From Thiocapsa marina 5811 (lineage in GTDB: Bacteria > Pseudomonadota > Gammaproteobacteria > Chromatiales > Chromatiaceae): a stretch of 64,000 bases of DNA. Each line of letters begins with the position of its first letter. Position 1 is the stretch's first letter. Where the stretch lies: assembly GCF_000223985.1 (NCBI RefSeq), contig NZ_AFWV01000003.1, forward strand, positions 186,001 through 250,000. Reading direction: 5' to 3'. Positions 18,663 through 49,373 of this stretch are shown here, piece after piece. A model generated the notes under the pieces. It did not search any database. It was not told the DNA's origin and worked only from the letters and a program-made list of their open reading frames with translations. Position numbers and translations under genes: made by a program.

Positions 18663-19264
18663 ACGCGCCCGCTGAGCTCGGCGCGATAGCGAGGGTCGGA
18701 CCCAACGCCGTCATCCGCGTCGCAGAGGCGTTGGAAGAGGCGCGCGGCCCGGATGCCGTCGCTCGGGTCTTCCGAACCGCCGGCCTAGAGCACTATCTGA
18801 AGACCCTCCCGAGCGAGATGGTCGACGAGCGCGAGGTCACTCGGCTCCAGGCGGCGCTGCGCGAGCAATTGGGTCTCGATGTCGCTCGACCCGTTTCGCA
18901 CGATGCGGGATTGCGCACGGGCGATTATCTGCTCGCCAATCGCATCCCGCGTCCGGTCCAGCGCCTCCTCGTCATCCTGCCGGCCCGCCTCGCGAGCCGT
19001 GTGCTGATCTCGGCCATTCGTCGTAACGCCTGGACCTTCGTCGGCAGCGGCGTCTTCGACGGGAAGCCCGGTCGCCCGACCAGGCTGACCGTGACGGATG
19101 GTCCGATCTGTCGAGGCGCTTCGGCCGACGAACCTCTCTGCGATTTCTACGCCGGGAGCTTCGAGCGCCTGTTCTCCAGGCTCGTCCACCCGAACGCGCG
19201 TGTCACCGAGGTTGCCTGCCAGGCCAGCGGTGACGAATCCTGCGTGTTCGAGGTGCGATGGTAG
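18638..19264 (+). CDS. bchJ: BchJ-type 4-vinyl-reductase-domain protein
   Basis: A ~208-residue protein of the 4VR (V4R) domain family. BchJ was first proposed to be the 8-vinyl reductase; later work on other organisms gives that activity to BciA or BciB, and BchJ appears to act as an accessory or substrate-channelling factor. Seen here: LPSEMVDEREVTRLQAALRE and the C-terminal V4R block with FYAGSFERLFSRLVHPNARV and TEVACQASGDESCVFEV. The start is uncertain: GTG (used) or the TTG at 18659 that overlaps the hemN stop as TTGA. Confidence 0.87.
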   Translation: MARDGRALNAPAELGAIARVGPNAVIRVAEALEEARGPDAVARVFRTAGLEHYLKTLPSEMVDEREVTRLQAALREQLGLDVARPVSHDAGLRTGDYLLANRIPRPVQRLLVILPARLASRVLISAIRRNAWTFVGSGVFDGKPGRPTRLTVTDGPICRGASADEPLCDFYAGSFERLFSRLVHPNARVTEVACQASGDESCVFEVRW

Positions 19265-19295
19265 CGCGTCTTTCGTGAGTGCCGGTCCAGATCCG

Positions 19296-20681
19296 ATGGA
19301 CATTCTCGATCTCCGGCTCCCATCCCAACCGGATTCGGCCTATCGCGCCGTTCTCGTCGGCGGCGAGCGATGGGACGGTTCGATGCTCGACGCGCGCATA
19401 CGGCAACGGGCCTCGTTTCTCCAGGCTCGGGGTCTTGAGCCCGGCCACGTCGTCCTCTGTCCCGACGGCCCCGTCCTTGATGTGCTCTTGATGAGCAGCG
19501 CCGCAGCGCGGCTCGGTGTTGCCGTGTTTCCCTTTCGTGCCGGCCTCGGACGCGCGGAATTGGATGTACTGGCTGTCGCAACGGGGACCGAGTGGCGATG
19601 GCAGCCCGAGTCCGGTGACCTTGTGAGCACGGGTGTCCTTTCCGCGGCGATGATCCCGCAAGAAACGCCGGTTGCTCGATTGGTCAAAACGAGCGGCAGC
19701 AGCGGCCAACCTAAGGTCGTCATGCTGAGCGCGAAAAATCTCCAGGTCTCGGCCGCCGCCGTCAATCGACAGCTCGGGTTCGGCGTCGACGATGTCTGGC
19801 TCTGTTGTCTTCGATTGAGCCATGTCGGCGGGTCGGCGATTCTTGATCGCACTGCGCTTGCGGGGGCGAGTCTTGTTCTGCACGAACGCTTCGACGCGCA
19901 AACGCTGGCCGAGGATCTGCGCCGGCATGCCGTGACCCATATCTCCCTGGTGCCGCCGATGCTGGACCGTCTCTTGGATGTCGGCGCGACCCCGCCCAAG
20001 AGCCTTCGCGTCCTCTTGGTGGGCGGCCAGGTACTAAGCCCGGCGCTCGCCGAGCGCGCGCTGGCCGCGGGATGGCCGCTCTATCTCACCTATGGAATGA
20101 CCGAGACTGCATCCCAGATCGCGACCTCGGCCCGTGCACTGGAGCGCGTTTGCGTTGATGGCAGCATCGGCCCGCTCCTTTCCGGCGTCGAGATCGCCTC
20201 CGGCCCGCCTGCGACCAGTCCGGCTCGCTTGAGAGTCCGCGGTCCGATGGTCATGATCGGCTATGCAAATCCGCAGCGCCTGCCGGGGCGGGGCCTCGAT
20301 GACGGCTGGTTCGAGACCTCGGACCTCGGCGGCGTCGGCGTCGACGGTGAGCTGCGGGTTGGCGGGCGAGCCGACGAGGTTTTGGTCATCGGCGGCACCA
20401 ATGTCTCGCTTTCCCGGGTCGAAGCCGTGCTGTGTCAGGCTCCGGGTGTTGCCGAGGTGGTGGTTGTCGCACTCGATGATCCGGTTTGGGGCCACCGCAT
20501 GGTTGCGATCTATCGCGGCAAACCGGACGAGCCGGCTCTTTGTTCCTGGTGCGAGCAAGCCTTGTCGGGCGCCGAGCGCCCTCGCGAGTTTAGGCGAGTC
20601 GCCGAGCTTCCGCTCCTTGATTCCGGAAAATATGACCGGAGCCTGATCCGCGCCATGGCGCAAACCGCCTCGAAGGCTTGA
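19296..20681 (+). CDS. MenE-like acyl-CoA ligase (adenylate-forming enzyme)
   Basis: A 461-residue enzyme with all core motifs of the AMP-binding superfamily: KTSGSSGQPKVV (P-loop) near residue 130, YGMTETAS, GWFETSDLG, GRADEVLVIGGTNV and GKYDRSLI with the catalytic lysine. The region LRLSHVGGSAIL...HISLVPPMLDRLL resembles O-succinylbenzoate-CoA ligase (MenE), which acts in menaquinone synthesis. Chromatiaceae reaction centres use menaquinone at QA, so a MenE role would fit the location after bchE-hemN-bchJ. This is inference; another carboxylate substrate is possible. No strong ribosome-binding site is seen; an in-frame GTG at 19275 is an alternative start. Confidence 0.72.
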   Translation: MDILDLRLPSQPDSAYRAVLVGGERWDGSMLDARIRQRASFLQARGLEPGHVVLCPDGPVLDVLLMSSAAARLGVAVFPFRAGLGRAELDVLAVATGTEWRWQPESGDLVSTGVLSAAMIPQETPVARLVKTSGSSGQPKVVMLSAKNLQVSAAAVNRQLGFGVDDVWLCCLRLSHVGGSAILDRTALAGASLVLHERFDAQTLAEDLRRHAVTHISLVPPMLDRLLDVGATPPKSLRVLLVGGQVLSPALAERALAAGWPLYLTYGMTETASQIATSARALERVCVDGSIGPLLSGVEIASGPPATSPARLRVRGPMVMIGYANPQRLPGRGLDDGWFETSDLGGVGVDGELRVGGRADEVLVIGGTNVSLSRVEAVLCQAPGVAEVVVVALDDPVWGHRMVAIYRGKPDEPALCSWCEQALSGAERPREFRRVAELPLLDSGKYDRSLIRAMAQTASKA

Positions 20682-20756: not shown

Positions 20757-20800
20757 TGTAAATCAGCCTTGACACATGCGACTGTCAGGTTAAACTAACA
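20757..20800 (+). promoter_or_regulatory. pucBA-1 promoter with paired PpsR boxes
   Basis: TGTAAATCAGCCTTGACA (20757-20774) and TGTCAGGTTAAACTAACA (20783-20800) are perfect TGT-N12-ACA sites, 26 bp centre to centre. The first ends in a consensus -35 (TTGACA), and the second contains a -10-like TAAACT; the spacer is 16 bp. PpsR bound to both would cover the polymerase site. This leaves a leader of roughly 130 bases before pucB. Confidence 0.85.
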
Positions 20801-20933
20801 CTCGTGGATCGCACCTCGCATCCGGGTTTCCCGGACTCGACGGCAAGCAGGCAGCGCCTTCCACACGTCGGAGTGTCCTGTCCGGGATCGCCGGGCGGCA
20901 CTCGCACCAATCCCTCAGCCGGAGGTTATTTCG

Positions 20934-21077
20934 ATGGCCGAAATGAAGAACCTGTCGGGTCTCACCGACGAGCAAGCGAAGGAGTTCCACGAGCATTGGA
21001 AGCATGGCGTGTGGAGCTGGGTCATGATCGCGACTCTGGTCCACGTGATGACGTGGGTCTACCAACCCTGGTTCTGA
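20934..21077 (+). CDS. pucB: LH2-type light-harvesting beta polypeptide, copy 1
   Basis: A 47-residue single-helix antenna protein: MAEMKNLSGLTDEQAKEFHE, then the membrane helix with the bacteriochlorophyll-ligating histidine in ATLVHVMTWVYQPWF. A strong GGAGG lies upstream. The N-terminal EQAKEFHEHWKHG block and partner alpha chain differ clearly from the puf-encoded LH1 betas in this window, so it is assigned to LH2. Nearly identical betas occur at copies 2 and 3. Translation is probably coupled with pucA, 25 bases downstream. Confidence 0.93.
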   Translation: MAEMKNLSGLTDEQAKEFHEHWKHGVWSWVMIATLVHVMTWVYQPWF

Positions 21078-21102
21078 GCTCTGAGCGACAAGGAGAATAT
21101 TT

Positions 21103-21363
21103 ATGCAAGTCCCGTATTTGATGGCCGACCCCTCCATTGCCAAACCCGATCATCCAGAAGAAGACTGGAAGATCTGGACCGTGATCAACCCGGCCACCTG
21201 GATGGTCCCGTTCTTCTTCATCCTGTTCATCCAGATGTGGTTGGTCCACTCCTACGCGTTGAGTCTGCCGGGCTACGGCTTCAAAGACAGCGTGCGCGTC
21301 GCCGAGCCCGCTGCGATTGCCGCCCCGGCTCCGGCCGCTCCGGCCGCTCCGGCTGCCCAGTAA
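21103..21363 (+). CDS. pucA: LH2-type light-harvesting alpha polypeptide, copy 1
   Basis: 86 residues. A soluble head MQVPYLMADPSIAKPDHPEE precedes the helix DWKIWTVINPATWMVPFF, continuing to the ligand histidine in WLVHSYALSLPGYGFKD. The INPATW segment is LH2-like rather than the DPRR/NPRP of the LH1 alphas here. The C-terminal tail is an Ala/Pro run (PAAIAAPAPAAPAAPAAQ) and is the part that differs most between the three copies. AGGAG lies 12 bases upstream of the ATG; a second in-frame ATG at codon 7 is possible. Binds bacteriochlorophyll a and carotenoid in the membrane ring. Confidence 0.92.
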   Translation: MQVPYLMADPSIAKPDHPEEDWKIWTVINPATWMVPFFFILFIQMWLVHSYALSLPGYGFKDSVRVAEPAAIAAPAPAAPAAPAAQ

Positions 21364-21393: not shown

Positions 21394-21863
21394 TCCTCGC
21401 GGCCTGGGAGGCTGTCCGACTTCGGTGCGCAACGCGCTCGTACGCGAGTTTCCGCGGTTTCGAGCATGTCGAAGCCGCCGAAATTTGCGTAGTGCATCGG
21501 TTTTGATCATTACGTGACCGGTTTTCGGCGATGACCAGGCCGAGATCCGACAAGTCGGACAGACTCCTGGCGGCGGTCCTTCGGACCTGAGCCCAGGTCA
21601 CCGGCGGCGCATCCCCGCCTGTGCACCGGCTGAAAAAGCCCGACGACGGCCGGAGTTGTCGCTCCGGCCGCGGGCGAGGGCGTCGTCTAAGCGCTGGTCT
21701 TCGCAATACCGGAATACAGCTAGACCAAGGCCGACGACGTGAAGCTCGCGCAGACGACTGCGGCAGCGCCGACACAAACAGCACAGTGAATCAGTGCTTG
21801 GTCGTTGACCTGGATGCTTAAGCGGCCGGGGCCGCGACGAACCACCGCCGGTCAGAATTGATC
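21394..21863 (+). other. pucA-1 to P450 spacer
   Basis: About 470 bases without a recognised gene. It contains an imperfect hairpin (GCGGTTTCGA / TCGAAGCCGC, 21454-21478) and no TGT-N12-ACA pair. The P450 promoter, if separate from that of pucBA, was not identified. Confidence 0.4.
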
Positions 21864-23240
21864 ATGCACCTGCATCCCGCAACCGACCCCGTGACACCGC
21901 CCGACCAGGTCGTCGCCAAACCGCCGACCTTATCGGGCTTTGCGTCCCTGCCCCCCCTGTTCCGGCGGGATCTCCTGACCTTGTTTGCGCGGGCCTCGCA
22001 GACGCCGTTCGTTCGTCTCGACTATCTCGGCTTTCGGCTGTTTCAGCTCAACGATCCGGCACTGATTCGGGAGGTGTTGCTCGACAAGGAGCGTCGCTAT
22101 CGTAAAGGCCGCCTGATGCGTCGGCTCAGCGCCGTGACTGGCGAGGGTTTGCTGATCAACGACGGCGAGCGCTGGAAGAAGCATCGCCGTCTCGCCAATC
22201 CGTCCATGTCCGGTCGTCGCCTCGACGGCTATGCGCCGGCGATGGCCGAATCAGCTCGACTCCTGGTCGAACGCTGGCGTGCCCTTCCGGCGGGACAGTC
22301 GGTGGATTTGATCGCGGAGATCTCCCGCACGACACTCATCGCCTTGCTGCGGACGCTCTTCGGCATCGACTACGACGCGCGCTACGCGGATGTCAGTGAG
22401 GTCATTCACCGCCTGCTTGATGCTCTCGTTCAACGCGGAAGCAGCCTCCTCGCACCGCCGCTGAGCTGGCCGACGCCTGCCAACCTACGTTTTCGGCGCA
22501 AGATCACCGAGGCGGAAGCGATCCTGGCGCGCATCATCGACACCCGTCGCCGCCATCTAAACGACGACCGGGACCCGAGCGATCTGCTCGGCCAATGGCT
22601 TCGCCAGCGCGAGCAAGACCCAGAGCATTTCACCCCGGACGAGATGCGCGACGAGCTCATGACCATGCTCATCGCCGGCCATCATTCGCTCGCGATCGCG
22701 CTGAGCTGGGCCCTCTGGGAGATCGCCGGCGACCCGGGCCTGCAGCAGCATCTGCGCGCCGAGGTGGACCCGCTGGAGAAGGCGCCAACCGATGCCGCCG
22801 CGGTGCAGGCCCTGCCGTTGACCCAGGGCGCCTTCCTGGAGGCGCTCCGTCTCTACCCGCAGCCGCCGATCCTGCTCCGCGATGCCGTCAGCGACCATGT
22901 TCTTGGCAATTACCGCATCCGTGCCGGCGATCAGCTCATCATCAACATCCTCGCCATCCACCACGACCCGCGGCTCTGGCCGGAGCCTTATCGCTTCCGG
23001 GCGGATCGCTACCCAAACATCAATCCGGACCATCTGATGCAGGCGCATCATCTGGGCTTCGGGGGTGGACCGCGCAGTTGTATCGGGCGTCGCTTCGCCC
23101 TGATCGAAGGCACCCTGCTGTTGGCCCATCTCGTGCGCGGACTGCAGCTTGATCGTGCTACCGCGGGTCCGATCGAGCCTCGCTTCGCCGGCATGATGGT
23201 GCCCTCGGCACCGCTGCTGCTGCATGTGACCCCGCGTTGA
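21864..23240 (+). CDS. Soluble cytochrome P450 of unknown substrate
   Basis: 458 residues with the heme-cysteine loop FGGGPRSCIGRRFALIEG near residue 400, the K-helix ExxR as EALR, and an upstream GLLINDGERWKKHRRLANPS segment (C-helix W/R that contact heme). It lacks an N-terminal membrane anchor. The I-helix reads MLIAGHHSLAIALSW where AGxET is usual: the acidic residue is His and the Thr is Ser, which could alter oxygen activation. It is the first of three overlapping genes with a methyltransferase and dxs, next to pucBA, so an isoprenoid or carotenoid substrate is a reasonable guess only. I start at ATG 21864; a TTG two codons earlier is possible. Confidence 0.88.
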   Translation: MHLHPATDPVTPPDQVVAKPPTLSGFASLPPLFRRDLLTLFARASQTPFVRLDYLGFRLFQLNDPALIREVLLDKERRYRKGRLMRRLSAVTGEGLLINDGERWKKHRRLANPSMSGRRLDGYAPAMAESARLLVERWRALPAGQSVDLIAEISRTTLIALLRTLFGIDYDARYADVSEVIHRLLDALVQRGSSLLAPPLSWPTPANLRFRRKITEAEAILARIIDTRRRHLNDDRDPSDLLGQWLRQREQDPEHFTPDEMRDELMTMLIAGHHSLAIALSWALWEIAGDPGLQQHLRAEVDPLEKAPTDAAAVQALPLTQGAFLEALRLYPQPPILLRDAVSDHVLGNYRIRAGDQLIINILAIHHDPRLWPEPYRFRADRYPNINPDHLMQAHHLGFGGGPRSCIGRRFALIEGTLLLAHLVRGLQLDRATAGPIEPRFAGMMVPSAPLLLHVTPR

Positions 23241-24157
23241 GCGAATCATCCAACGCCGATACTCCGAGCACTGGCGGCGCTGCGCCGGTCGCGCCGACGC
23301 TCGACGGCGTCAGCCGCACCCTACTGATCCCGTTGCTTGCCCGCGCCGAGGCCCAGTCGCTGTGGCCCGGGGTCGCATTCGACGATGCCGCAGCGCGCGA
23401 CCTGGCGGCAAGGCTTGCTGTCGATCGCGCCGAGGTGGGAACGGACCCTTTCCCGATGCGGCTCTGCATCAGCCGCTCACTGGCGATCGAGGAAGCGCTC
23501 GGTACATTACTGAGCGAGCCGATTGAGCGCACCCTGGTGCTGCTCGCCTGCGGTCTCGATACCCTTCCTGTGCGGCTTGATGCAACCCTCGCACCCGCAC
23601 GGCGGGCGCGCGTGCGCCGCTGGGTCTGCGCCGACCTGCCGCCGGTCGTGGCGCTACGCGACCAGCTCCTGCCGGCGTCGGAGCGGATTCGGCACGTCCG
23701 CGCCGCGCTGCCCGATCAGCTCGATGAGATCGCCGCAGCACTCGACGAGACGCGGCCGGTGTTTATCCTGGAAGGGGTTCTGCCCTACCTCGATGCTGCG
23801 CAGGTTGCAGACTGTCTCGCCGCCCTTGGCAGGCTGGCGCCCGCCGGGGCCGATCTCCTGGTCGATGGCTACCATCCGGCCTTGCTCGCCTTCTCGAGGC
23901 TTGGCAACACCTTTCGGCGGATGCGCACCCGCTTCCGCTTTGGCATCGCGGACCCGCGCGATTACGCCGGGATGGCCCCGCGCATCCACTTTCACGCGCA
24001 GCAGAATCTGTTGCGTCCCCTGCCCTGGCATCACCGCAAGCGTGCCTGGCTGCCGTCGCTCGCCGCTGGCGGCAAGCCGCTGGCCACGCTGGCGCAGCTC
24101 GAACTCACGCCGAGTGCCGAGGGCGTCAACTCGTTACGGAGCGTCCGCCATGACTGA
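23237..24157 (+). CDS. SAM-dependent methyltransferase (LCMT/TcmP-like)
   Basis: A ~306-residue protein of the leucine carboxyl methyltransferase/polyketide O-methyltransferase superfamily. Motif I is [13 protein letters not shown], and [20 protein letters not shown] matches the family's conserved post-motif. The substrate is unknown. The TTG start overlaps the P450 stop (TTGA), and its own stop overlaps dxs by 8 bases, so the three are translated as a unit. Together with the P450 it suggests hydroxylation followed by O-methylation of a small molecule, by inference from neighbours. Confidence 0.82.
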
Positions 24158-26072
24158 TACCGAGCCTTCGGCCCCGCCACAGTATCCGCTCCTCGACTTG
24201 ATCGATGATCCAACCGATCTGCGTGCCCTCCCGAGCAGTGCCCTGAGGCCGCTGGCGAGCGAGCTGCGCGCCTTCTTGATCGACAGCGTCTCGCGCACCG
24301 GTGGCCATCTCGCCGCTGGACTCGGTGTGGTCGAGCTCACTATCGCCCTGCATCGCGTCTTTGACACGCCGCACGATCGCATCGTCTGGGATGTTGGCCA
24401 TCAGGCCTATCCGCACAAGATCCTCACTGGACGCCGCCAACGCATGGGAGGCTTGCGCCAGAAAGGCGGGATCTCGGGCTTCCCGAAACGCTCCGAAAGC
24501 GTCTACGACACCTTCGGTGTCGGCCATTCGAGCACGTCGCTGAGCGCGGCACTCGGAATGTCCATCGCCGCGCGGCTCAAGGGCGAGTCGCGGCAGGTCG
24601 TCGCCGTGATCGGCGACGGCTCCTTGGGCGCCGGCATGGCCTTCGAGGCATTGAATCACGGCGGTCCACTCGACCCGGACCTGCTCGTGATCCTGAACGA
24701 CAACGAGATGTCGATCAGCCCGCCGGTGGGCGCCCTCAGCAAGCACCTCGCCAGTCTTCTGAGCGGGCGCACCTATACCAACGTGCGCGAAGGCAGCAAA
24801 CAGGCGCTTGCGAGTCTGCCCGAGCTGCGCCAGTTCGTCGGCCGTTGGGAAGAACATCTGAAGGGGATGTTCATGCCGAGCACCTTATTCGAGGAGCTCG
24901 GCTTCAACTACATCGGGCCGATCGATGGTCACGACCTCGACGCCGTCATCGCCACACTGACCAACATGAAGCAGATGCCGGGACCACGCCTGCTGCATCT
25001 GATCACCCAGAAAGGGCGCGGCTACGCCCCGGCTGAGCAGTCTCCTACCCGCTACCATGGGGTAACCCCGTTCGATCGCGCGACCGGCAGGATGCACAAC
25101 AAGCGCGGCACCGGGCCGACCTATACAGAGGTCTTCGGTGAATGGATCAGCGACGCCGCGGCGCGTGATGCCCGGCTGATCGGAATCACACCAGCTATGC
25201 GCGAGGGCTCCGGGCTCGTGCAATTCTCCGAGCGTTTTCCGGATCGCTACTTCGATGTCGGCATCGCCGAGCAGCACGCCGTCACCCTTGCCGCGGGCAT
25301 GGCCTGCGAGGGACTGAAGCCAGTGGTCGCGATCTATTCATCCTTCCTCCAGCGCGCCTATGATCAGCTCGTGCACGACGTCTGTCTGCAGGGTCTCGAT
25401 GTCACCCTCGCGGTCGATCGCGCCGGGCTCGTTGGCGCCGATGGCGCGACCCATGCCGGCAGCTTCGACCTCAGCTTCGCTCGCACCCAGCCCAATCTCG
25501 TCATCGCCGCCCCGGCCGACGAGAACGAATGCTGGCAGCTGCTCGAAACCGCCTATCAGCATCCGGGTCCGGCCCTGGTGCGCTACCCGCGCGGCACCGG
25601 CCCCGGCGTCGCCCTCAAGCGCGGAGCCGAGACATTACCCATCGGTCGTGGAGAAATCAGGCGCATGGGACGCGATATCGCGCTGCTCGCCTTCGGTAGT
25701 CGCGTCCCCCCCGCCGAAGAAGCGGGGCGGATACTGGAGGCTACCGTCGCCAACATGCGCTTCGTCAAGCCCTTGGATGAGGCACTCATCCTCGAACTCG
25801 CCGATCGCCATCGGCTGCTGGTCACGGTCGAGGAGAATGCGATCGCAGGCGGTGCCGGCTCTGCCGTTTCCGAGGTGCTCGCCGCGCATGGCCTGAATGT
25901 CTACTGCCTGCACCTCGGGCTGCCCGATCTCTGCCTAGAGCAAGCCGGGCATGAGGAACAGCTACGCGTCTGCGGCCTCGATGCCGCCGGCATCGTGTAT
26001 AGCGTCAGGATGGAGATGGAGCACATCGATCTCTGCGCCGAGGCCCCAAGGCTCGATCAGCGCGCAGCCTGA
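24150..26072 (+). CDS. dxs: 1-deoxy-D-xylulose-5-phosphate synthase
   Basis: The thiamine-diphosphate enzyme that condenses pyruvate and glyceraldehyde 3-phosphate, the entry and flux-setting step of the MEP isoprenoid pathway. The 640-residue protein is full length: the ThDP motif [18 protein letters not shown] continues to NDNEMSIS; the transketolase pyrimidine domain has [18 protein letters not shown]; and the C-terminal domain is intact. It probably supplies precursor for carotenoids and the bacteriochlorophyll tail. It may be a second, pigment-dedicated copy; whether another dxs exists elsewhere cannot be told. Confidence 0.95.
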
Positions 26073-35396: not shown

Positions 35397-36317
35397 TTAG
35401 CGTCGGGGCATCCGATAGGGCAGCAGGTGCTGGACCCAAGCCGAGCGGAAGCGATCCAGCGATAGGCTTTCATGAACCGCCTCGATGGGACGGCCCTGCA
35501 GGTGTGAAGCAATCACCGAGCGTGAATAAAAGGGCGTGTCCTCCAAGGTCTTGACGACCCGTGGCGGATGCTTGGCATCGGCTTGGCTGGAGCGCGGCAT
35601 GCGCCAAATCGGGGTGCGCGCGAGCCGATGATCCGGCGGCGCATCGAAGTGACTCAAGCCACCGTCGGCACCGAAGTGCAGCCCGAGCGACAGCCTTCCT
35701 CCCTCGCGCCGATCGGCATGATAGAGGATCAGACTCTCATCGCCACCAAGACTGGCACGCGACCAATCCCAATACCGGAACGCATCCTCCAGCGGCTCGT
35801 CGCCCCAGTTACGGTCAAAATAGGCATGCCCAGTCCAATTCAGCGCCGGCCGCTCGAAGCTCACCTCAACCTTGGCGCTCGGTGCAATCGGCCGCCAACG
35901 ATGCCGACCGGCCTGATCGAGCGTGAAGACCTGCTCGTTGATAAAGGCCGGAGCGAGCTTGACCAGCCCTCGCACACGCTGCGGGATCGGGGTGCCGATC
36001 TCGTCCAGCTCCACCGTCAGGCCACCATCGGCATCCCACTGAAGCGCGCTTGGCCCGATCTGCAGGCGCGAAGCGGTTTGCGCGAGCGCGTGCCGACGCC
36101 GCTCGGTCATGGTCCAGCGCCGCTCTTTGCCGTAGAGACAGACGTTCAACGAGCAGTAATCGCTCGGCTCATCGCGTCCACGACGCCTGCCCTTGAAGTA
36201 GTATGGCGAGAAGACGCTGCCGATGAAGGCGATCAGGGTCAGCCCATGGCGGCCGTCATCACTGAGCGCGTCCACGTACCACCAGGCATACCCGCGCGGC
36301 GGGACCTGTACGCTCAG
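35397..36317 (-). CDS. crtC: Acyclic carotenoid 1,2-hydratase
   Basis: CrtC adds water to the psi end of acyclic or monocyclic carotenes to give the tertiary 1-OH. Diagnostic blocks are GYAWWYVDALSDDGRHGLT, GSVFSPYYFKGRRRG, YCSLNVCLYG, ALNWTGHAYFDRNWGDEPLE and WDWSRASL. The start is odd: no ATG, GTG or TTG lies close to the conserved N-terminus, but a CTG overlaps the crtD stop (CTGA) with AAGGA six bases upstream, giving 306 residues MSVQVPPRGYAWW. In an okenone-type pathway this OH is then methylated by CrtF. Last gene of the crtD-crtD-crtC run. Confidence 0.92.
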   Translation of the reverse strand: MSVQVPPRGYAWWYVDALSDDGRHGLTLIAFIGSVFSPYYFKGRRRGRDEPSDYCSLNVCLYGKERRWTMTERRRHALAQTASRLQIGPSALQWDADGGLTVELDEIGTPIPQRVRGLVKLAPAFINEQVFTLDQAGRHRWRPIAPSAKVEVSFERPALNWTGHAYFDRNWGDEPLEDAFRYWDWSRASLGGDESLILYHADRREGGRLSLGLHFGADGGLSHFDAPPDHRLARTPIWRMPRSSQADAKHPPRVVKTLEDTPFYSRSVIASHLQGRPIEAVHESLSLDRFRSAWVQHLLPYRMPRR

Positions 36318-37789
36318 GTCAGGTCCTTGAGGATCGCCTCCGCCGCTAGGCGCCCGGAGATTGCCGCCATCGGGACCCCCGGCCCCGGATGCACGCTGCC
36401 CCCCGCCAGATACAGCCCCGCCAGACGCGAGCGAGCCGCCGAGCGGCTGAACGGCCCCCGCCATCCATGCGAGGTGCGGCCATAGAGCGCGCCCCCGGTG
36501 GCCGGAAACATGCGCTCGAACTCCGTCGGCGTGGTGATCACCCGACGCTCCGGACTGATGTCGGCCCTGAGGCCACAGCGGCGCAACAGGTTGAAGGTCT
36601 GCTCTTCGCATTGCTCGATCTCTTCGCTCGTGAATGGTTTGATGTCGCCCCGCGCGGGTGCGTTGACGAGGCACAACAGCCGTTCCGGCCCCTGGACCTC
36701 CGAGTCGTCATTGCGATCCTGTGCGCAGACATAGACCGTCGGCTCTCTTGGCAGCTCGCCACGCCCGAAGATGGCATTGAACTCCTCGGCATAGTCACGG
36801 CAGAAGAACACGTTGTGCCGCACCAGCGGGAAGCCATGGGTCTTGGCATTGACACAGAAGGTCACCGCCGATAATGAGCGCGCGGAGCGTGGATGCGCCG
36901 AGACCGCGCGGCGCGCTGCCGCCCCGAAGGACCCAGCGGACAGAGCCGCGACATCGGCGTTGCAAAGAACGGCATCCGCCTGGATATGCTCGCCGGTCTC
37001 AAGCTGCACGCCAACGACGCGCTTGCGCTCGACGAGGATCTCCCGGACGCCGGAGTGGTAGCACAGCTTGACGCCTCGTTCCTTTGCGAGCGCTGCACAG
37101 GCCTTAGGCAACTGATGGATACCGCCATCGACTGACCAGACCCCAGCCTGCTCCACATGCGCAACGATCCCGAGCGTTGGCGGCGCGCGGAACGGCGAGG
37201 AGCCGACATAGGTGGCATAGCGACCGAAGAGCTGGCGCAGCCGAGGATCCGGGAAGAAGCGGCCCAAGTCCTGCCAGAGCGTCGAGTAGGGCTTCAGGCG
37301 CGCAACCGGAATCAAGCCGGAATCGAGCACGAGCGAGAGGGGGGTCGGCTCCGCAAGCTGGATGAAGGCATGCTCCAAGGTGCGGTACATGTCGCTGGCG
37401 CGCGCGCAGAAGGCACGAAACAGACGCGCCTGCTCGGCACCGGCAAAGTCCCCGATTGCCTCTGCCGAGCGATCGATGTCGGTGTAGAGGTCGAGCCGCT
37501 CGTCCTCACTCCAGGCATGGCGCGCCAAGACCTCGACCGGACGCAAGCTGAGGTAATCATCCAGCCTGGCTCCAGCCGCGGCGAAGAGATCGTCGAACAC
37601 CCAGCGCATGGTCACCACGGTCGGCCCGGAATCGATCTGCGCACCGGCGACTTGGACCTCACGCATCTTGCCGCCCGGATAGCCCGAGCGCTCCAACAAC
37701 GTGACTCGGATCCCCTGGGCGGCAACCCTGATCGCGGCGGCCAGACCGCCGATCCCGGCGCCGATTACGACGACGTGCGGCTCAGCCAT
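36314..37789 (-). CDS. CrtD-like carotenoid desaturase/oxygenase, paralogue A
   Basis: A 491-residue flavoprotein of the CrtI/CrtD family, with N-terminal FAD motif VVVIGAGIGGLAAAIRVAAQ and C-terminal signature GGSVHPGPGVPMAAISGRLA. It carries the CrtD-style segments EVLARHAWSEDERLDLY and RQLFGRYATYVGSSPFRAP. CrtD makes the 3,4 double bond of 1-hydroxycarotenoids. Work on okenone producers also described CruS, a related enzyme with desaturase plus ketolase activity. With two tandem paralogues here, one may be CrtD and the other a CruS-type enzyme, but sequence reading cannot say which. Overlaps the crtC start by 4 bases. Confidence 0.85.
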   Translation of the reverse strand: MAEPHVVVIGAGIGGLAAAIRVAAQGIRVTLLERSGYPGGKMREVQVAGAQIDSGPTVVTMRWVFDDLFAAAGARLDDYLSLRPVEVLARHAWSEDERLDLYTDIDRSAEAIGDFAGAEQARLFRAFCARASDMYRTLEHAFIQLAEPTPLSLVLDSGLIPVARLKPYSTLWQDLGRFFPDPRLRQLFGRYATYVGSSPFRAPPTLGIVAHVEQAGVWSVDGGIHQLPKACAALAKERGVKLCYHSGVREILVERKRVVGVQLETGEHIQADAVLCNADVAALSAGSFGAAARRAVSAHPRSARSLSAVTFCVNAKTHGFPLVRHNVFFCRDYAEEFNAIFGRGELPREPTVYVCAQDRNDDSEVQGPERLLCLVNAPARGDIKPFTSEEIEQCEEQTFNLLRRCGLRADISPERRVITTPTEFERMFPATGGALYGRTSHGWRGPFSRSAARSRLAGLYLAGGSVHPGPGVPMAAISGRLAAEAILKDLT

Positions 37790-37909: not shown

Positions 37910-39400
37910 TCAAAGGCTTTTCAGGACCATATCGGCCGCCAGACGTCCGGAAATCGATGCCATCGGGATTCCCGGGCCTGGGTGCGCACTGCCGCCGGCG
38001 GTGAAGAGCCGCTCGATCTTGGTCACCGCGCCAGGACGATCGAACGAGCCCCACCAGCCATGATTGACGCGACCGAATACCGCCCCGCCAGAGGCAGGAT
38101 AGGCACGCTCGAAATGCATTGGGGTTGTGACGGCAATGTCTTCACGCTCGGCGAGCGTCAACCCGCAGTGCCGGAGCAAGGCGGTCACCTGCTCACCGCA
38201 GCGGCGGATCTCCTCCTCGGGGATGACCTGGGAATCACCGCGCGACGGCGCATTGACCACGATCAGCATCCGCTCGCGCTCGGTTGGCTCCGGCGCCGAG
38301 GGATCGCCGCGATCCTGCGCACAGAGGTAGACGGTCGGATGCGCCGGGAGTCGTAGGTCGTCAAAGACCGCCTTGAACTCGTCCGCATAGTCACGCGGGA
38401 AGAAGACATTGTGATACTGCATCGGAAAACCGGCCGGGCGCGCGAGCAGATTCCAGGTTACCACCGAATGGGAGCGATTCTTGGGCGGAATCGGCGGCAC
38501 CGCACGCTTGGCTTGCTCGCCGAACAGACCGGCACCGAGCGCGGCCGCATCCGCGTTGCAAATCACCGCATCGGCTTCGATCCGCTCGCCGTTTTCCAAG
38601 CGCACGCCGCGAGCGCGTCCACCTTCGATCAGGATCTCTGCCACGCCCGCGCCATAGGTCAGCTCCACGCCCTTCTCCGCGGCAAGATCCGCCAGTGCCT
38701 CGGGCAAGCGATGAATGCCTCCTTCCACCGCATGCACGCCGCGGCTTTCGACATCGGCAACCAGCATCAGGGTGGCCGGGGCATGATAAGGAGAGGCACC
38801 GACGTAAGTGGCGTAACGGCCAAAGAGTTGCCGCAGGCGCGGGTCCTTGAAATAACTGCCGAGCGCTTGCCACAGCGTGAACACGGCCTTGATCCGCATC
38901 AGCTCGCCGAGCCCGTTCCAGCCGAAGCGCGCGAAGATGGTCACCGGCGTGGGCTGTTGCGACTGGATGAAAGGGACATCCAAGGCCGCATAGACCCGCT
39001 TGGCGTGGGCTGCGAAGCGGCGAAAACCGTCCGCCTCTTTGGCTCCGGCAAACGCGGCGATGGCCTGCGCGGAACGCTCGTGATCACCGAACAGATCCAA
39101 GCGCTCGGTCTCGCTCCAGGCATGGCGGGCAAGCACATCTGCCTGATGCAGCTTAACCCGCTCGCCCAGGTTTGCACCGGCCTCGCGAAAGATCTCCTCG
39201 AAGACCCACGGCATCGTGAGCACCGTAGGTCCGGTGTAGAAGGATTGACCGTCAACCTGTTGCTCGCGCAGCTTGCCACCCGGGTGATGACCGCGCTCGA
39301 ACACCCTGACATCGAGCCCGTTTAAAGCGAGTTTCAAAGCGGCGGTCAAGCCGCCCATCCCGGCTCCGATCACAATGACCTGTTTTCTGCGCGTCGGCAT
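37910..39400 (-). CDS. CrtD-like carotenoid desaturase/oxygenase, paralogue B
   Basis: 496 residues, clearly homologous to paralogue A across its length: FAD motif VIVIGAGMGGLTAALKLALN, DVLARHAWSETERLDLF, QLFGRYATYVGASPYHAPAT, C-terminal GGSAHPGPGIPMASISGRLA. The separation of 120 bases from paralogue A contrasts with the tight A-crtC junction. PpsR boxes lie 38-81 bases upstream, so it is probably the first gene of the operon. The exact reaction (3,4-desaturation, or ketolation as in CruS) is undecided. Confidence 0.85.
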   Translation of the reverse strand: MPTRRKQVIVIGAGMGGLTAALKLALNGLDVRVFERGHHPGGKLREQQVDGQSFYTGPTVLTMPWVFEEIFREAGANLGERVKLHQADVLARHAWSETERLDLFGDHERSAQAIAAFAGAKEADGFRRFAAHAKRVYAALDVPFIQSQQPTPVTIFARFGWNGLGELMRIKAVFTLWQALGSYFKDPRLRQLFGRYATYVGASPYHAPATLMLVADVESRGVHAVEGGIHRLPEALADLAAEKGVELTYGAGVAEILIEGGRARGVRLENGERIEADAVICNADAAALGAGLFGEQAKRAVPPIPPKNRSHSVVTWNLLARPAGFPMQYHNVFFPRDYADEFKAVFDDLRLPAHPTVYLCAQDRGDPSAPEPTERERMLIVVNAPSRGDSQVIPEEEIRRCGEQVTALLRHCGLTLAEREDIAVTTPMHFERAYPASGGAVFGRVNHGWWGSFDRPGAVTKIERLFTAGGSAHPGPGIPMASISGRLAADMVLKSL

Positions 39401-41268: not shown

Positions 41269-42387
41269 TTGCAACTTCCATTTATCGAGCGTTGGCGCGT
41301 TTGGCGCGATCGCAAGCTCGCTAGCCCGAGCTTTCAGCGCTGGGCAGCGGATTTCCCGTTGACCAGGCACGAGGCATCAAAGCGTGCCCGCGCACTGTTT
41401 GATATCACCGCCGGCTTCGTCTATTCCCAGATCCTCTCCGGATGTGTCGAGCTGGGGCTCTTTGACGAGCTGGCCGATGGTCCGCGGAGCGCCGATGATC
41501 TAGCCGGTAAGATGGGTATGACGCCTGCGGCTGCAGACCGCTTCTTGCGCTCGGCGGTCGCGATCGATCTCCTGGAGCGGCGCGGCAATGGCCGTTACGG
41601 GCTCGGCAAGCTGGGGATTGCAATGCCGGGCAATCCGGGGATCGCGGCCATGGTGCGTCATCATCGCATGCTGTATCACGATCTCGATGACCCGCTCGCG
41701 CTGTTTCGCGGCGAGCGCAGCGAGACCGAGCTTGGGCGCTACTGGTCTTACGCTGGCTCCGCAGACCCCGCAGCCGATGGTGACGAGCGGGTGGCTGAAT
41801 ACAGTTTGTTGATGTCGGCGTCGAGCGGCTTCGTCGCCGAGGACACGCTCGATGCATTCCCTCTGAGCGACTATCGTTGCTTGATGGATGTCGGTGGTGG
41901 CGAGGGTCGGTTCTTGTTGCAGGCGGCCCAGCGCTGGCCGCACCTGCAGTTGCGTCTGTTCGATCTGCCCGCGGTCGTCGAGCGGGCCCGTGAGCGCTTC
42001 CGCGATGCCGGAATTGAAGGCCGTGCCGAGGTCTTCGGCGGTAACGTCAAGGTCGATTCGCTACCGCGGGGGGCGGATATCATTTCTTTGGTGCGCGTGA
42101 TCCTGGACCATAACGACGACGGTGCGATGGCTATTTTGCGTGCCGTGAGGGCCGCACTCGAGCCTGGTGGTACCCTGATCATTACCGAGCCGATGTCGGA
42201 GACGCCGGGGGCCGAGCCAGTCGGTGACGCCTATTTCGGCCTCTATCTGCTGGCGATGGGCAGCGGGCGCACACGTCCGCCGCGCGAGCATCGTGCCATG
42301 CTGCAAGCCGCAGGATTCGACCAGATTCGCTTCGTCCGCACGCGCCGGCCACTGCAAACTCGGCTCGTCGTCGCCAAGGCGGCTTGA
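41269..42387 (+). CDS. crtF: 1-hydroxycarotenoid O-methyltransferase
   Basis: CrtF methylates the C-1 hydroxyl made by CrtC, giving the methoxy end group of spirilloxanthin- or okenone-type carotenoids. The 372-residue protein has an N-terminal winged-helix dimerisation part (ARALFDITAGFVYSQILSGC, GLFDELADGPRSADDLAGKM) and a SAM domain with LMDVGGGEGRFLLQAAQRWP and LILVRVILDHNDD-like SLVRVILDHNDDGAM. TTG is the start, with GAAGG seven bases upstream and no suitable ATG. Full length for the family. Confidence 0.93.
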   Translation: MQLPFIERWRVWRDRKLASPSFQRWAADFPLTRHEASKRARALFDITAGFVYSQILSGCVELGLFDELADGPRSADDLAGKMGMTPAAADRFLRSAVAIDLLERRGNGRYGLGKLGIAMPGNPGIAAMVRHHRMLYHDLDDPLALFRGERSETELGRYWSYAGSADPAADGDERVAEYSLLMSASSGFVAEDTLDAFPLSDYRCLMDVGGGEGRFLLQAAQRWPHLQLRLFDLPAVVERARERFRDAGIEGRAEVFGGNVKVDSLPRGADIISLVRVILDHNDDGAMAILRAVRAALEPGGTLIITEPMSETPGAEPVGDAYFGLYLLAMGSGRTRPPREHRAMLQAAGFDQIRFVRTRRPLQTRLVVAKAA

Positions 42388-45224: not shown

Positions 45225-47129
45225 CTAGAGCGCGAGTGGTCCTTTGGGGTCGACGGTCGGGATCGGATTCTCGCGCAGCCCTTCGGCGACGAGAACCTGA
45301 TTGGCTGCCATACGGCCGGTCATGGTCGCCGCCTCCATCAGGTTGGCCGGCACCTCGAGCCGCAGGTAGTCGCCGGCGAGGAACAGATTGTCGATGGGTG
45401 TCTGCACGCCTGGGCGCCCTGCATAGTCGCCAGGCGCCCAGCGCGGGAAGTTCTCCTGCATCGTGTAGATGTCGTAGACGATCTTGGCGTCCTTGAGGGC
45501 CGGGATCAGCTCGTCGAGCTCAGCGCGCATGATGCGCTTGATCTCGGCCTCGTCGATGACGTTCTCCGGCTCGACCGCATAGGCATGCAGCTCGATGATC
45601 GAACCCGTATGACGACGCGCCCAGTCTTCCGATTCGGGCTGCATTTGAGAGTAGATCGCGATCGAGTCGGTGTAGCGCCAGCCGCTGACGGTATAGAAGG
45701 GAACCGCCATCGGCGGGCATTCGCCGTCAAGCCAGAGTCGCCAGACGATGTAGGGATCGGCGACGCCGAGGCGCTCAACGCTGCTCACCAGCTCGGGGCT
45801 TGAGAGCTCGGACTGGGCGATGATGGCTTTGACACCGGGCACATCGCAGGCCAGCACCACATAGTCCGCCGCCAGCTCGATGTTCGATTGCTCGGGGCGA
45901 GCGCTGAGCTTGACCTGCCCGTCGGGCATGGGAGTGGCGTCGAGCTCGACCAGCGGGACGATGGTTGGCCCAGTGGTGGGAACGCCGTTGCTGTCGTACT
46001 TGGCGCCATGGCATGGGCAGGCGAAGCCGCCCGTGGCGGCATCGAGGCCGACCGGGCAGCCCATGTGGGTGCAACGCCCGGAGACCCCCTGGATCTCGCC
46101 CTGCGGGTCGCGCTTGGCATAGTAGAGATCGGGGCCGTTCCAGAACGGGGTCCATTCCGTGCCGATGGCGGCGGCATTGATGCTGTGCTCAGCGCCGAGG
46201 ATGGCACCGGGACGCTTGAGGATGATCTTGCTGATGCGTCCATCATGCGCGACCAAGCGATCGACCTCCGCCCCGGTGGTGACGCGGACACCAAGCTCGG
46301 TGAGGGCGTTGGTCAATGGGGTGATCACCGAGGTCATGGCATCGTCGATGGTTTGGTCGTAGCCCATGCCATCGGGATTGCCGAGGAAGAAGAAATGGAA
46401 AAACTTGATGCCCTCGGCGGTCGAGTAGCGATGAAACTGGTTGAAGGAGGTGTGCGCGAAGGGCTCGATGATGGTGTCGACCATCGGCTTGTTGACGCGT
46501 TCGCAGAAGGTCTTGAAGTCGAGGTCATCGAGGCGCGCGAAGGTCTTCTCCGGATCGTAGCGCATCACCTCGTAGAGCCGGCCGGTTGGGTTATTGAAGT
46601 CGAGCAGTGAGACCGACTTGGCTTGATCGACGACGGCGAAGAGGTTGAATGGGAACAGGGTCGTCGTGTTGGTGAAGCTCTCGGTGCCTTTGGCCGGGTC
46701 TTTGAAAATCACCGGGTAATCCAAGACCGGCTTGAAGTTGTCGCGCAGGCCGTTCTCGGCGAGTAGCCCATTGAGGTTGTAGTACTGATTGAAGAAGCCA
46801 TGAAAGCCGTGCTCCGTGGCCATGGTCTCGCCGTTCACGTCGACATCCCAGCCCGTGAGCCGCCCACCAAGGTTGCTGGAGCGCTCGACCAGGGTGACGT
46901 CGAAGCCGCGCTTGGCGAGCTCATAGCTCGCGGCAATGCCGGCGAGTCCGCCGCCGACCACCACCACCCGCTTGCGTGTGCTCGGGCTCAGTGGGAGCGC
47001 TGCATTATCGTCGGAGGCAAAGGGCAGGGTAGAGCGCCGCGGCTGGATGGCGTACAAGCCAGCGGTGCCGAGCGCGGTGCCGGCGACGGTGATGAGCCCT
47101 ACATTTCGAATGAAGTGGCGACGGTGCAT
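45225..47129 (-). CDS. crtU: Carotene desaturase/methyltransferase (aromatase) with Rieske domain
   Basis: CrtU turns a beta ring into an aromatic chi- or phi-type ring by desaturation and methyl shift. The 634-residue protein has an N-terminal twin-basic, hydrophobic segment (MHRRHFIRNVGLITVAGTAL), an FAD motif VVVVGGGLAGIAASYELAKR, the GHGFHGFFNQYYNL-like EHGFHGFFNQYYNLNGLL, and in the middle a Rieske 2Fe-2S site: CTHMGC and CPCHGAKYD (~residues 375-400). The C-terminal part carries GDYLRLEVPANLMEAATMTG. Such a Rieske insert is also known from green sulfur bacterial and cyanobacterial relatives. Next to a divergent crtY it marks an aryl carotenoid pathway, most likely okenone in a purple sulfur bacterium. 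Confidence 0.9.
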   Translation of the reverse strand: MHRRHFIRNVGLITVAGTALGTAGLYAIQPRRSTLPFASDDNAALPLSPSTRKRVVVVGGGLAGIAASYELAKRGFDVTLVERSSNLGGRLTGWDVDVNGETMATEHGFHGFFNQYYNLNGLLAENGLRDNFKPVLDYPVIFKDPAKGTESFTNTTTLFPFNLFAVVDQAKSVSLLDFNNPTGRLYEVMRYDPEKTFARLDDLDFKTFCERVNKPMVDTIIEPFAHTSFNQFHRYSTAEGIKFFHFFFLGNPDGMGYDQTIDDAMTSVITPLTNALTELGVRVTTGAEVDRLVAHDGRISKIILKRPGAILGAEHSINAAAIGTEWTPFWNGPDLYYAKRDPQGEIQGVSGRCTHMGCPVGLDAATGGFACPCHGAKYDSNGVPTTGPTIVPLVELDATPMPDGQVKLSARPEQSNIELAADYVVLACDVPGVKAIIAQSELSSPELVSSVERLGVADPYIVWRLWLDGECPPMAVPFYTVSGWRYTDSIAIYSQMQPESEDWARRHTGSIIELHAYAVEPENVIDEAEIKRIMRAELDELIPALKDAKIVYDIYTMQENFPRWAPGDYAGRPGVQTPIDNLFLAGDYLRLEVPANLMEAATMTGRMAANQVLVAEGLRENPIPTVDPKGPLAL

Positions 47130-47441
47130 GGTGTTCTCCGGAACGATGAAGCGGTATGCGGGATAGGGTCTCGATGCCGCTGCCGCCATGCGCCGCAGGC
47201 AGGCATGATCCGAACCCGGCCAGGATGAGAGGGGTGTGAGGAGGATTGCATCGAAGGCTATCGAAAGCTCAAGCAGGGGTCGCAGACGGTCATCAAGCAA
47301 CCATCGGCGCAGGCTTGCGGGCGCTACGAGTCTGTTGCGAAGGTGATAGTATACGCCCCCCTGAGCACTGAGCCCAGTACGGACTGAGCTAGCGACCTGT
47401 GTCCCCCGTTCCCTCCGCCCTAGAACCCTGAGATCATAGCC
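47130..47441. other. Divergent crtU / crtY region
   Basis: 312 bases between two divergent carotenoid genes. No TGT-N12-ACA pair was found. GGAGAAC precedes crtU. Promoters were not identified with confidence. Confidence 0.45.
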
Positions 47442-48614
47442 ATGACCACCCAGGAACAACCGTGGGCCGACGCCGATTATCTGCTTGTCGGCGGTGGCCT
47501 TCAGAATGCACTCATCTTGATGGCTCTCGCCCGGCGGCGGCCAGATGCATCGATCATCTTGCTCGAGCGCGAAGCCGAAATCGGCGGCAACCATATCTGG
47601 TCCTTCCAAGCCCGCGATCTGCCGGAGTCGGCCTTCGATTGGGCCGCTCCCCTGATCGAGTATGAGTGGCCGGGCTATCAGCTTTTCTTCAAGGAGTCCT
47701 CGCGGTGGGTCAAGGGGGCTTATCGATCGCTGACCTCCGATCATCTCGATCGGGTCGTGCGTGCTGTCGCAGACACGTCATCGCGGATTGAGCTGCGGTT
47801 TGAAGTCGAGGTGCGCCGGGTGCAGGCCGAGGCGGTCGAGCTTGCCGATGGCTCGCGGTTACGCGGGCGAGTGGTGATCGATGCGCGTGGGCCGGAGCAA
47901 GGCGGTCACAGCCCGGGCGGGGGTTATCAGAAGTTCGTTGGTCTCGAATGTCGCCTCAGCCGTCCCGCGCCGACGGCGGTGCCGATCTTGATGGACTCGC
48001 GCTGTCGGCAGCGCGATGGCTTTCGCTTCTTCTATATCCTGCCCTTCGCTGCGGATCGGGTGCTGATCGAGGATACTTATTTCTCCAATTGCCCGGATCT
48101 GGATGTCGATGCCATCAAAGCGTCCATTTTGGCCGAAGCGCCTGATTTAGGCTTAGAGGTCGACGCGGTCTTGCGCACCGAGGTCGGCGTCTTGCCGATG
48201 CCGGCACTCAGCACCTTGCATCCTAAGTCCCGCGGGCCGATCGTGGCGGGCTATGCCGGGGGTTGGTATAATCCGAGCACGGGCTATTCATTGGCGGCGG
48301 CCTCGCGCTTAGCCGAGCATCTGTCGAAAACGCCCTTCGACGACCTCTTTGGTCGTGATTGGCGTCGCTTGACGCGCGACCTGCGCTTCCAGTCGATCTT
48401 CCTTGCCGCGCTGAATCTGCTGATGTTCCGCTGGTTCCATGACGATAAGCGGCGGCGCTTGATGGAGCGCTTCTATTTGCTGCCAGACGCGGTTATCCAC
48501 CGGTTCTTCGCGATGGAAACGACCTTGGTCGATTGGTGGCGGATCATGTACGTCGGTGCCCCTTGGACACCGAAGGGCTGGGGGCGCCGTGCGCGGACCC
48601 CGGAACAGCCCTAA
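47442..48614 (+). CDS. crtY: Lycopene beta-cyclase
   Basis: The 390-residue CrtY-type cyclase forms the beta ring that CrtU then aromatises. Diagnostic segments: the N-terminal dinucleotide fold DYLLVGGGLQNALILMAL, EAEIGGNHIWSFQARDLP, VVIDARGPEQ, QKFVGLECRL, the FFYILPFAADRVLIEDTYFS block (two parts: FFYILPFAADRV, LIEDTYFS) and AGYAGGWYNPSTGYSLAAAS. Since okenone has only one ring, it should act on a single end of lycopene; what limits it to one end is not visible. It is followed within 10 bases by repeat copy C. Confidence 0.94.
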   Translation: MTTQEQPWADADYLLVGGGLQNALILMALARRRPDASIILLEREAEIGGNHIWSFQARDLPESAFDWAAPLIEYEWPGYQLFFKESSRWVKGAYRSLTSDHLDRVVRAVADTSSRIELRFEVEVRRVQAEAVELADGSRLRGRVVIDARGPEQGGHSPGGGYQKFVGLECRLSRPAPTAVPILMDSRCRQRDGFRFFYILPFAADRVLIEDTYFSNCPDLDVDAIKASILAEAPDLGLEVDAVLRTEVGVLPMPALSTLHPKSRGPIVAGYAGGWYNPSTGYSLAAASRLAEHLSKTPFDDLFGRDWRRLTRDLRFQSIFLAALNLLMFRWFHDDKRRRLMERFYLLPDAVIHRFFAMETTLVDWWRIMYVGAPWTPKGWGRRARTPEQP

Positions 48615-48709: not shown

Positions 48710-48782
48710 GTAAGTGTTTACTGCACGACTGCGCGCAGCAGTTGTTGTGCGGTCCTACAACCATCACGAGAGAGTGTCTGTC

Positions 48783-49373
48783 ATGCCAGAATCCGCGGCC
48801 GATTGTCGGCCCATTCCATTCGTCTTGGTCTTCGTCATTGCCGCACTGGCGATCTTGCTCGGCGTCTACGCGGTGCCCGAGTCCTTCAGCCTGGCCGTTT
48901 TTGACGCTCAAGCGATCACCAAGGCGGCCATCTATCTGGGCGCGACCATGCTGATGATGTGCTATGTCGATGCCTTTCGCTCGCGGTGTTTGCGTGGCTT
49001 CGTCACCATCGCCTTGGTTTTGCTTGCGCTTGGCTGCGCGATCCCTTTCTTCGGCAGCGAGCGCGCGCTATGGGGACCTCTCCAGCATGGGGCCATCAAC
49101 AGCCTCTATCTACTTGTGGGGCTGCTGGCGTTCCTGCATTTTTCTCTGCATACCATGCCCCGTGCCTGGCGGCAGAGCCTGACGCCAAGGCGCTCCGACT
49201 GGATCGGCGCAGCGCTCGTGCTTGGTGTTGCCTTGTATCGCGATTATGACCCGAGCTTAAGGGTGGCAGAGAACCTCATCGGACTCGGGGCGACTGGGAT
49301 CGCCATTTTGGTGGGGGCGTTGTTGTGTACCCTGTTGATGCGCCATCGTGCACGGGGGCTCGCGCTGGCCTAG
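48783..49373 (+). CDS. Integral membrane protein of unknown function
   Basis: 196 residues with about six hydrophobic helices (IPFVLVFVIAALAILLGVYA, AAIYLGATMLMMCYV, GFVTIALVLLALGCAIPFF, LYLLVGLLAFLHFSL, and two C-terminal ones) and few charged residues. I do not recognise the family. ATG 48783 is preferred over the open frame upstream, which enters repeat copy C. The gene lies between crtY and the scar region on the same strand as crtY, so a link to carotenoid or membrane biology is possible but unproven. Confidence 0.65.
   Translation: MPESAADCRPIPFVLVFVIAALAILLGVYAVPESFSLAVFDAQAITKAAIYLGATMLMMCYVDAFRSRCLRGFVTIALVLLALGCAIPFFGSERALWGPLQHGAINSLYLLVGLLAFLHFSLHTMPRAWRQSLTPRRSDWIGAALVLGVALYRDYDPSLRVAENLIGLGATGIAILVGALLCTLLMRHRARGLALA

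Follow-up and report, generated by a model that had tools for sequence, protein, structure and literature searches.

What a cytochrome P450 and a methyltransferase contribute to the pigment genes of Thiocapsa marina 5811 was analyzed on a stretch of 64,000 nucleotides (contig NZ_AFWV01000003.1, positions 186,001 to 250,000; in the following termed the window). Three consecutive genes are concerned: those for the P450 and for an S-adenosylmethionine-dependent methyltransferase of the leucine carboxyl methyltransferase (LCMT) family, together referred to as the pair, and dxs for 1-deoxy-D-xylulose-5-phosphate synthase (DXS; Table 1). The original prediction, made from the nucleotide sequence alone, had placed them correctly, and both overlaps it described, 4 bases between P450 and methyltransferase genes (TTGA) and 8 bases between methyltransferase gene and dxs (ATGACTGA), were confirmed. 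Within the family, the pair is confined to genomes possessing the carotenoid desaturase gene crtU. It quite possibly represents a two-step tailoring branch, oxidation followed by O-methylation, on the pathway of the aryl carotenoid okenone, an assignment that we hold tentatively and somewhat short of an even chance.

The P450, with an ATG start, has the same length in five close relatives. The 4-base overlap is kept in five relatives (G139, G137, G119, G098 and Thiocystis minor), where it reads ATGA or GTGA instead of TTGA, and a start of the methyltransferase gene at TTG is thereby supported; in the four carriers of genus g38 this gene is located close behind the P450 gene without such an overlap. 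Ratios of non-synonymous to synonymous substitution rates (dN/dS; seven relatives compared) range from 0.08 to 0.34 for the P450 and from 0.21 to 0.33 for the methyltransferase, and both intact genes are therefore under purifying selection. Among carriers of the pair, G139 is the closest relative; its methyltransferase stops a few residues short, and its genome has a second crtF-type gene.

Occurrence of the pair within the family

The same 146 genomes, drawn from a larger family, were queried with four proteins (thresholds of E 1e-60 for the P450 and E 1e-10 for the methyltransferase). Genes for pufM were found in 57 genomes, crtU in 16, all inside these 57, and the pair in nine. All nine carriers are among the 16 crtU genomes, while none of the 41 phototrophs without crtU has the pair (pair versus crtU, Fisher p 1.3e-6 with related genomes counted as separate). 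Methyltransferase matches occurred in 11 genomes, i.e., the nine with the P450 and two crtU-less phototrophs without it (G049 and G087); the latter two matches are weak (32–34 % identity) and were not accepted as orthologs. At genus level, both crtU and the pair are present in two of six phototrophs of g1 and neither in four; in g16, three of five genomes have both and two have neither; in g38, four of five have both and one has crtU only. In the two mixed genera, g1 and g16, the pair thus tracks crtU exactly.

A scan of named genome contigs yielded 20 loci, 11 of which contain P450s of 51–95 % identity: those of Thiocystis minor, Lamprobacter modestohalophilus, Halochromatium roseum, a Halochromatium metagenome-assembled genome (MAG), five Thiohalocapsa genomes and two deltaproteobacterial MAGs. 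Carriers beyond those of the family search are T. minor and Thiohalocapsa HLSAbin6, both with crtU and pufM.

Genomic position and probable transfer

P450 and methyltransferase genes are adjacent in all 11 carriers, and in each of the ten with readable surroundings they lie amid photosynthesis genes, the exact places differing; the contig of HLSAbin6 (3.2 kb) shows the pair only. Antenna genes are located upstream of the P450 gene in nine of these ten. In g16, the pair adjoins antenna beta-alpha genes ahead of crtD-family genes. In g38, roughly 0.5 kb separates it from the last antenna genes of the puf operon, which precede it, and in T. minor it has the crtD-family pair on one side and the puf operon on the other. 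The link to pigment genes that had been predicted is supported by this placement together with the nesting in crtU carriers, and a consistent location of P450 and methyltransferase genes away from pigment genes, checked for in the relatives, was not observed within the family.

Compared to the window, the g16 proteins share 91–95 % (P450) and 93–95 % (crtD-family) identity, versus only 81–82 % for PufM and 76–78 % for BchY/Z-type proteins, which fits transfer of an okenone block. However, such values (91–95 % for crtD-family pair and P450 between g1 and g16) are also what a shared island would give if the pair modified another isoprenoid or lipid (quinone, hopanoid, fatty acid or other carotenoid) and travelled with okenone islands for other reasons, an alternative that is doubtful to our mind but carries real weight. 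In T. minor, P450 and methyltransferase share 94 and 88 % identity with those of the window and the crtD-family pair only 72–74 %; therefore, the pair moved apart from the crtD-family genes, yet came to lie once more next to genes for pigments in a genome with crtU. Of the arguments against mere hitchhiking this is the strongest, although drawn from a single genome. The position of the pair behind the puf operon in g38, with crtU on a different contig, and its absence from the 41 crtU-less phototrophs likewise speak against that alternative.

DXS as an optional neighbour

The original prediction had suggested that P450, methyltransferase and DXS may act as a trio. The DXS passes the TIGR00204 cut-off (465.95 bits), and an intact dxs in overlapping frames adjoins the pair in the window and two g16 genomes. 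In the four g38 carriers, dxs begins behind the pair after a gap (roughly 140–250 bases past the aligned methyltransferase end in the two genomes measured), the remainder being beyond the contig ends. However, no dxs adjoins the pair in T. minor or H. roseum, and in G139 (locus L023) dxs is broken, residues 80–415 missing, next to an intact P450 gene. Conversely, dxs is present in the pigment regions of two crtU genomes without the pair (G107, there beside the crtF-type gene, and G038). Since dxs is absent or broken beside the pair and present without it, DXS is no fixed partner; the trio is not supported as a unit, DXS as an essential part was rejected, and an obligatory three-gene pathway is very improbable. 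DXS is rather a supply gene of such clusters. The genome of T. marina contains another dxs copy on contig C62 (71 % identical to that of the window).

Motifs and relatives of the P450

The P450 carries the heme cysteine motif FGGGPRSCIG and the ExxR motif (EALR), both conserved in the relatives compared. Its I helix reads AGHHS or AGHQS in all 13 members of its clade (window, ten other linked P450s and two deltaproteobacterial ones). A standard P450 monooxygenase typically has an acid-alcohol pair (D/E-T) at this site; acid and threonine are both missing here. The canonical ET or DT is present in eight more distant relatives (L042–L048, L050) and in both other P450 matches of the T. marina genome; in relative L049 no canonical ET/DT-type I-helix motif was found. 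Since AGH(H/Q)S also occurs in the two deltaproteobacterial proteins, the change marks a clade wider than the pigment link. Judging by this motif, the enzyme could activate oxygen in another way or make no use of it.

In the latter case, the P450 would work as an isomerase, dehydratase or peroxide-driven enzyme, suiting an anaerobic phototroph. O2-independent P450s often lack the acid-threonine pair, and the loss throughout the clade, next to its retention in the more distant relatives and the other P450s of the genome, is in line with such an activity. However, serine can partly replace threonine, heme and ExxR motifs are intact, and none of the matches listed (60 by sequence, 50 by fold) is named as an O2-independent P450, so that this possibility appears rather improbable.

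The nearest solved relatives by sequence are CYP184A1 of Streptomyces avermitilis (30–31 % identity) and CYP97A3 (26–27 %), ahead of P450 BM3; by fold, P450 BM3 entries are close behind these two. CYP184A1, although the best solved relative, differs in its canonical I helix (GHETT). CYP97-type hydroxylases (CYP97A3, CYP97C1) are among the best relatives by both sequence and fold, and the plant carotenoid hydroxylase CYP97A3 shares with the P450 of the window the I-helix stretch RD(E/D)LMTMLIAGH and the K-helix stretch LRLYPQPP; its E-T pair, however, is H/Q-S in the clade of the window. The identity to CYP97A3 is below the 40 % that we take to be exceeded within a CYP family, placing the protein outside CYP97.

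Methyltransferase

The methyltransferase passes the Pfam LCM gathering score (29.2 versus 22.3 bits) and remains below the cut-off of NCBIfam TIGR00027 (31.9 versus 93.55 bits), to which it is therefore not assigned. The AlphaFold2 model of the protein (METHYLTRANSFERASE; pLDDT 82.5) retrieved as top folds with Foldseek ML2640c, Rv0731c, PPM1 (entry title: leucine carboxyl methyltransferase), TYW4 and human LCMT-1, and the predicted fold is closest to LCMT-type methyltransferases. Despite common Pfam family and fold, identity to PPM1, ML2640c and Rv0731c is only 13–20 %. By sequence, no solved structure was matched at E 1 with the single protein, and a profile gave two matches (E 0.081 and 0.21), none below E 0.05. 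A search with the methyltransferase profile in 398 genomes of the phylum yielded eight matches including the window's own; the other seven (best E 1.5e-33) were taken as general family members, an assignment made without reading their surroundings or a P450 search.

The enzyme is of the LCM family and not of the Methyltransf_2 fold with dimerisation domain that marks CrtF. A role as CrtF substitute was ruled out, since crtF-type genes are present in all ten pair carriers tested (two as partial matches; HLSAbin6 was outside this test).

Relatives outside the family

Two large deltaproteobacterial MAGs (loci L035, L040 and L063) encode P450s of 56 % (G148) and 51 % identity (G149, in the following NP119), members of the same AGHHS clade. 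Neither pufM nor crtU was found in these genomes, and no photosynthesis genes were recognised in the 21 kb around their P450 genes. NP119 also has a relative of the methyltransferase (40 % identity, nearly full length, E 2e-57), located on another stretch apart from the P450 gene; neither pigment genes nor a P450 were recognised around it. In G148, no methyltransferase relative was detected at E 1e-5. Thus, both enzymes occur together outside the phototrophs at least once, which supports a joint function and weighs against okenone as the only substrate. On this comparison, the pair may predate okenone and extend beyond it.

Proposed function of the pair

In case of a function in okenone tailoring, the P450 would act first, oxidising okenone or one of its late precursors, with the aromatic chi-ring or a methyl group on it as the most likely site. 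The hydroxyl or carboxyl group thus formed would be O-methylated by the LCMT-type enzyme. Expression of the pair would accompany that of the antenna genes, with activity when traces of oxygen are present, and the adjoining DXS, where kept, would add to isoprenoid supply. Oxygen dependence would make the branch conditional, as with CrtA, a ketolase described as requiring oxygen in PMC10604819. Substrate, product, site and order of the steps are part of this proposal, as are oxygen dependence and regulation. A more detailed version is rather unlikely. In it, the oxygen-activation site of the P450 would have been rebuilt, oxidation would take place on okenone at its chi-ring end, and the LCMT-type enzyme would close the oxidised position as a methoxy group or methyl ester; this undescribed branch of aryl-carotenoid biosynthesis would be induced together with the antenna genes close to the oxic-anoxic boundary.

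Precedents for such P450s are cited in PMC6212597: in Brevibacterium, a P450-dependent final step leading to aryl carotenoids, and, in Thermus, the beta-carotene hydroxylase CYP175A1. The former likewise concerns a P450 acting on an aryl carotenoid. Among the openly licensed papers listed in searches, none describes a P450-methyltransferase pair of this kind in its title or at the beginning of its abstract.

Several observations weigh against the proposed branch. Seven of the 16 crtU genomes are devoid of the pair, which is therefore dispensable for okenone. CYP184A1, which ranks ahead of CYP97A3, was crystallised with oleic acid, and the likewise close P450 BM3 adds to this point. Substrates of LCMT-family members are varied. 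A normal P450 needs oxygen, and the oxygen tolerance of Chromatiaceae is given as low to none in PMC8232776. Finally, NP119 holds unlinked relatives of both enzymes without detected pufM or crtU, and G148 the P450 alone. The ligand of CYP184A1 and the relatives in NP119 would favour another lipid or isoprenoid as substrate; this is the strongest rival to a branch of the okenone pathway, with NP119 as its main evidence.

The P450 was also considered as the missing enzyme of rhodopinal formation, the genes of which are called unknown in PMC10604819. This candidate was set aside since the pair follows crtU; rhodopinal producers were not tested directly.

Antenna genes and predicted regulatory sites

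The original prediction had put the three genes directly behind an antenna pair named pucBA-1. However, the antenna pair of the window ends 500 bases before the P450 gene, and its alpha gene is labelled by NCBIfam as pufA of the light-harvesting complex 1 type rather than puc. Closer to the P450 gene, the 3' end of a further antenna alpha gene remains in decayed form; an intact version of that gene precedes the P450 gene in Lamprobacter (G137; L024), with 77 bases between its stop and the P450 gene. In view of this decayed g16-type gene, the upstream antenna pair now seen is probably not that of g16. T. minor has no antenna gene in the kilobase before the P450 gene; directly before the latter lies a piece resembling the upstream region of the g16 antenna operon (72 % identity, 104 columns, E 1.3e-9).

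Two palindromes TGT-N12-ACA, which we take to be the consensus of PpsR/CrtJ-type boxes, are located upstream of the antenna pair. The pattern occurs 15 times in the window, compared to a mean of 6.9 in shuffled sequences. Four pairs of palindromes are spaced 26 bases apart (20757/20783, 40094/40120, 45101/45127, 50025/50051) and are probably PpsR boxes. Within 1.5 kb upstream of the P450 gene, two such boxes were found in the window (about 1.1 kb away), two in G139 and 2, 3 and 2 in the three g16 genomes, while none matched the strict pattern in T. minor and four g38 genomes; each of the two deltaproteobacterial MAGs has one. Since the boxes are patchy among carriers and present in both of these MAGs, the pattern alone is weak evidence. 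A scan for sigma-70 promoters and terminators gave no better results than shuffled sequences.

Okenone-type and other photosynthesis genes of the window

The window comprises a photosynthesis gene cluster, with ppsR, bchH, bchL, bchM, puhA, puhE, bchE, a hemN gene, bchJ, pucC, a nitrogenase-like (bchY/Z-type) gene, pufL and pufM recognised by family search. According to passages of the review PMC10604819, the okenone pathway of Thiodictyon syntrophicum comprises crtY, crtU/cruE, crtC, crtF, cruO and cruS, CruS and CruO being described as distant CrtD relatives. Correspondingly, the window harbours in one cluster crtY, genes of crtU-, crtC- and crtF-type and two crtD-family genes assigned to the cruO/cruS type by context (Table 1), with the crtC- and crtU-type genes below curated cut-offs or without a model of their own. 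A difference is that no P450 or LCMT-type enzyme is named for the T. syntrophicum pathway in these passages. The crtF-type gene of the window has matches in 16 of 17 genomes searched.

Table 1 Features of the locus and of its surroundings in the window
Feature	Coordinates	Strand	Evidence and remarks
Two TGT-N12-ACA palindromes	20757..20800 (20757, 20783)	.	Upstream of antenna pair; PpsR/CrtJ-type box
Antenna beta-alpha pair	20918..21363 (about)	+	Alpha: NF040861, 53 bits; beta: similarity to antenna beta of a relative
Decayed 3' end of another antenna alpha gene	21691..21780	+	blastn 79.6 %, 93 columns, E 2.6e-18
Cytochrome P450	21864..23240	+	ATG start, 458 amino acids; Pfam p450 E 1.6e-70
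SAM-dependent LCMT family methyltransferase	23237..24157	+	TTG start, 306 amino acids; Pfam LCM E 1.1e-6
1-deoxy-D-xylulose-5-phosphate synthase (DXS)	24150..26072	+	ATG start, 640 amino acids; TIGR00204 849.7 bits
crtC-type gene (carotenoid 1,2-hydratase)	35397..36674	-	NF045922 E 1.3e-83, 280.5 of 400 bits (below curated cut-off)
crtD-family gene 1 of pair (cruS/cruO-type by context)	36314..37789	-	NF045637 E 1.1e-209
crtD-family gene 2 of pair (cruS/cruO-type by context)	37910..39400	-	NF045637 E 9.5e-192
crtF-type O-methyltransferase	41269..42387	+	Pfam Methyltransf_2 E 4.6e-37 and dimerisation domain
crtU-type carotenoid desaturase, Rieske-like domain	45225..47744	-	HpnE, carotene desaturase and Rieske matches, all below cut-offs
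crtY lycopene beta-cyclase	47442..48614	+	TIGR01789 261.4 bits, cut-off 215.2

In the crtC-type open reading frame, the NF045922 match begins at residue 147, and the true start is located inside the frame. The crtU-type gene may be so named on resemblance and context. Its predicted N-terminus is about 200 residues longer than that of most matches, which start near residue 190–205, and the extra part runs into the start of crtY; from late match starts and overlap, the true start is probably near 47130.

Further genes of the cluster include an AMP-ligase (19245–20681) that is MenE-like but below the model cut-off, overlaps bchJ and is 94 % conserved in G139. Between crtY and crtE, a small membrane-like protein (48714–49373) without Pfam or NCBIfam match is 86–87 % conserved in two g16 genomes. 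Behind the puf region, a protein resembling ribulose-1,5-bisphosphate carboxylase/oxygenase (62070–63371) is shared with T. minor (72 %).

Implications

If the proposed branch exists, a tailoring step in only some okenone bacteria would provide an extra compound to seek in lakes and sediments. In a mat from Vigo, Thiohalocapsa is given as 32 % of the Chromatiaceae, and three unknown keto-carotenoids (absorbing at 485–490 nm) are reported, the table showing no okenone peak (PMC8549741). The pair offers two candidate genes for these pigments, a link that is only suggestive. Should the branch furthermore depend on oxygen, an anaerobic pigment pathway would have oxygen chemistry built into it. In sediments, okenone survives as okenane, which serves as a marker for purple sulfur bacteria (PMC11041744), and an oxygen-linked okenone derivative could leave a trace of its own beside this fossil marker.

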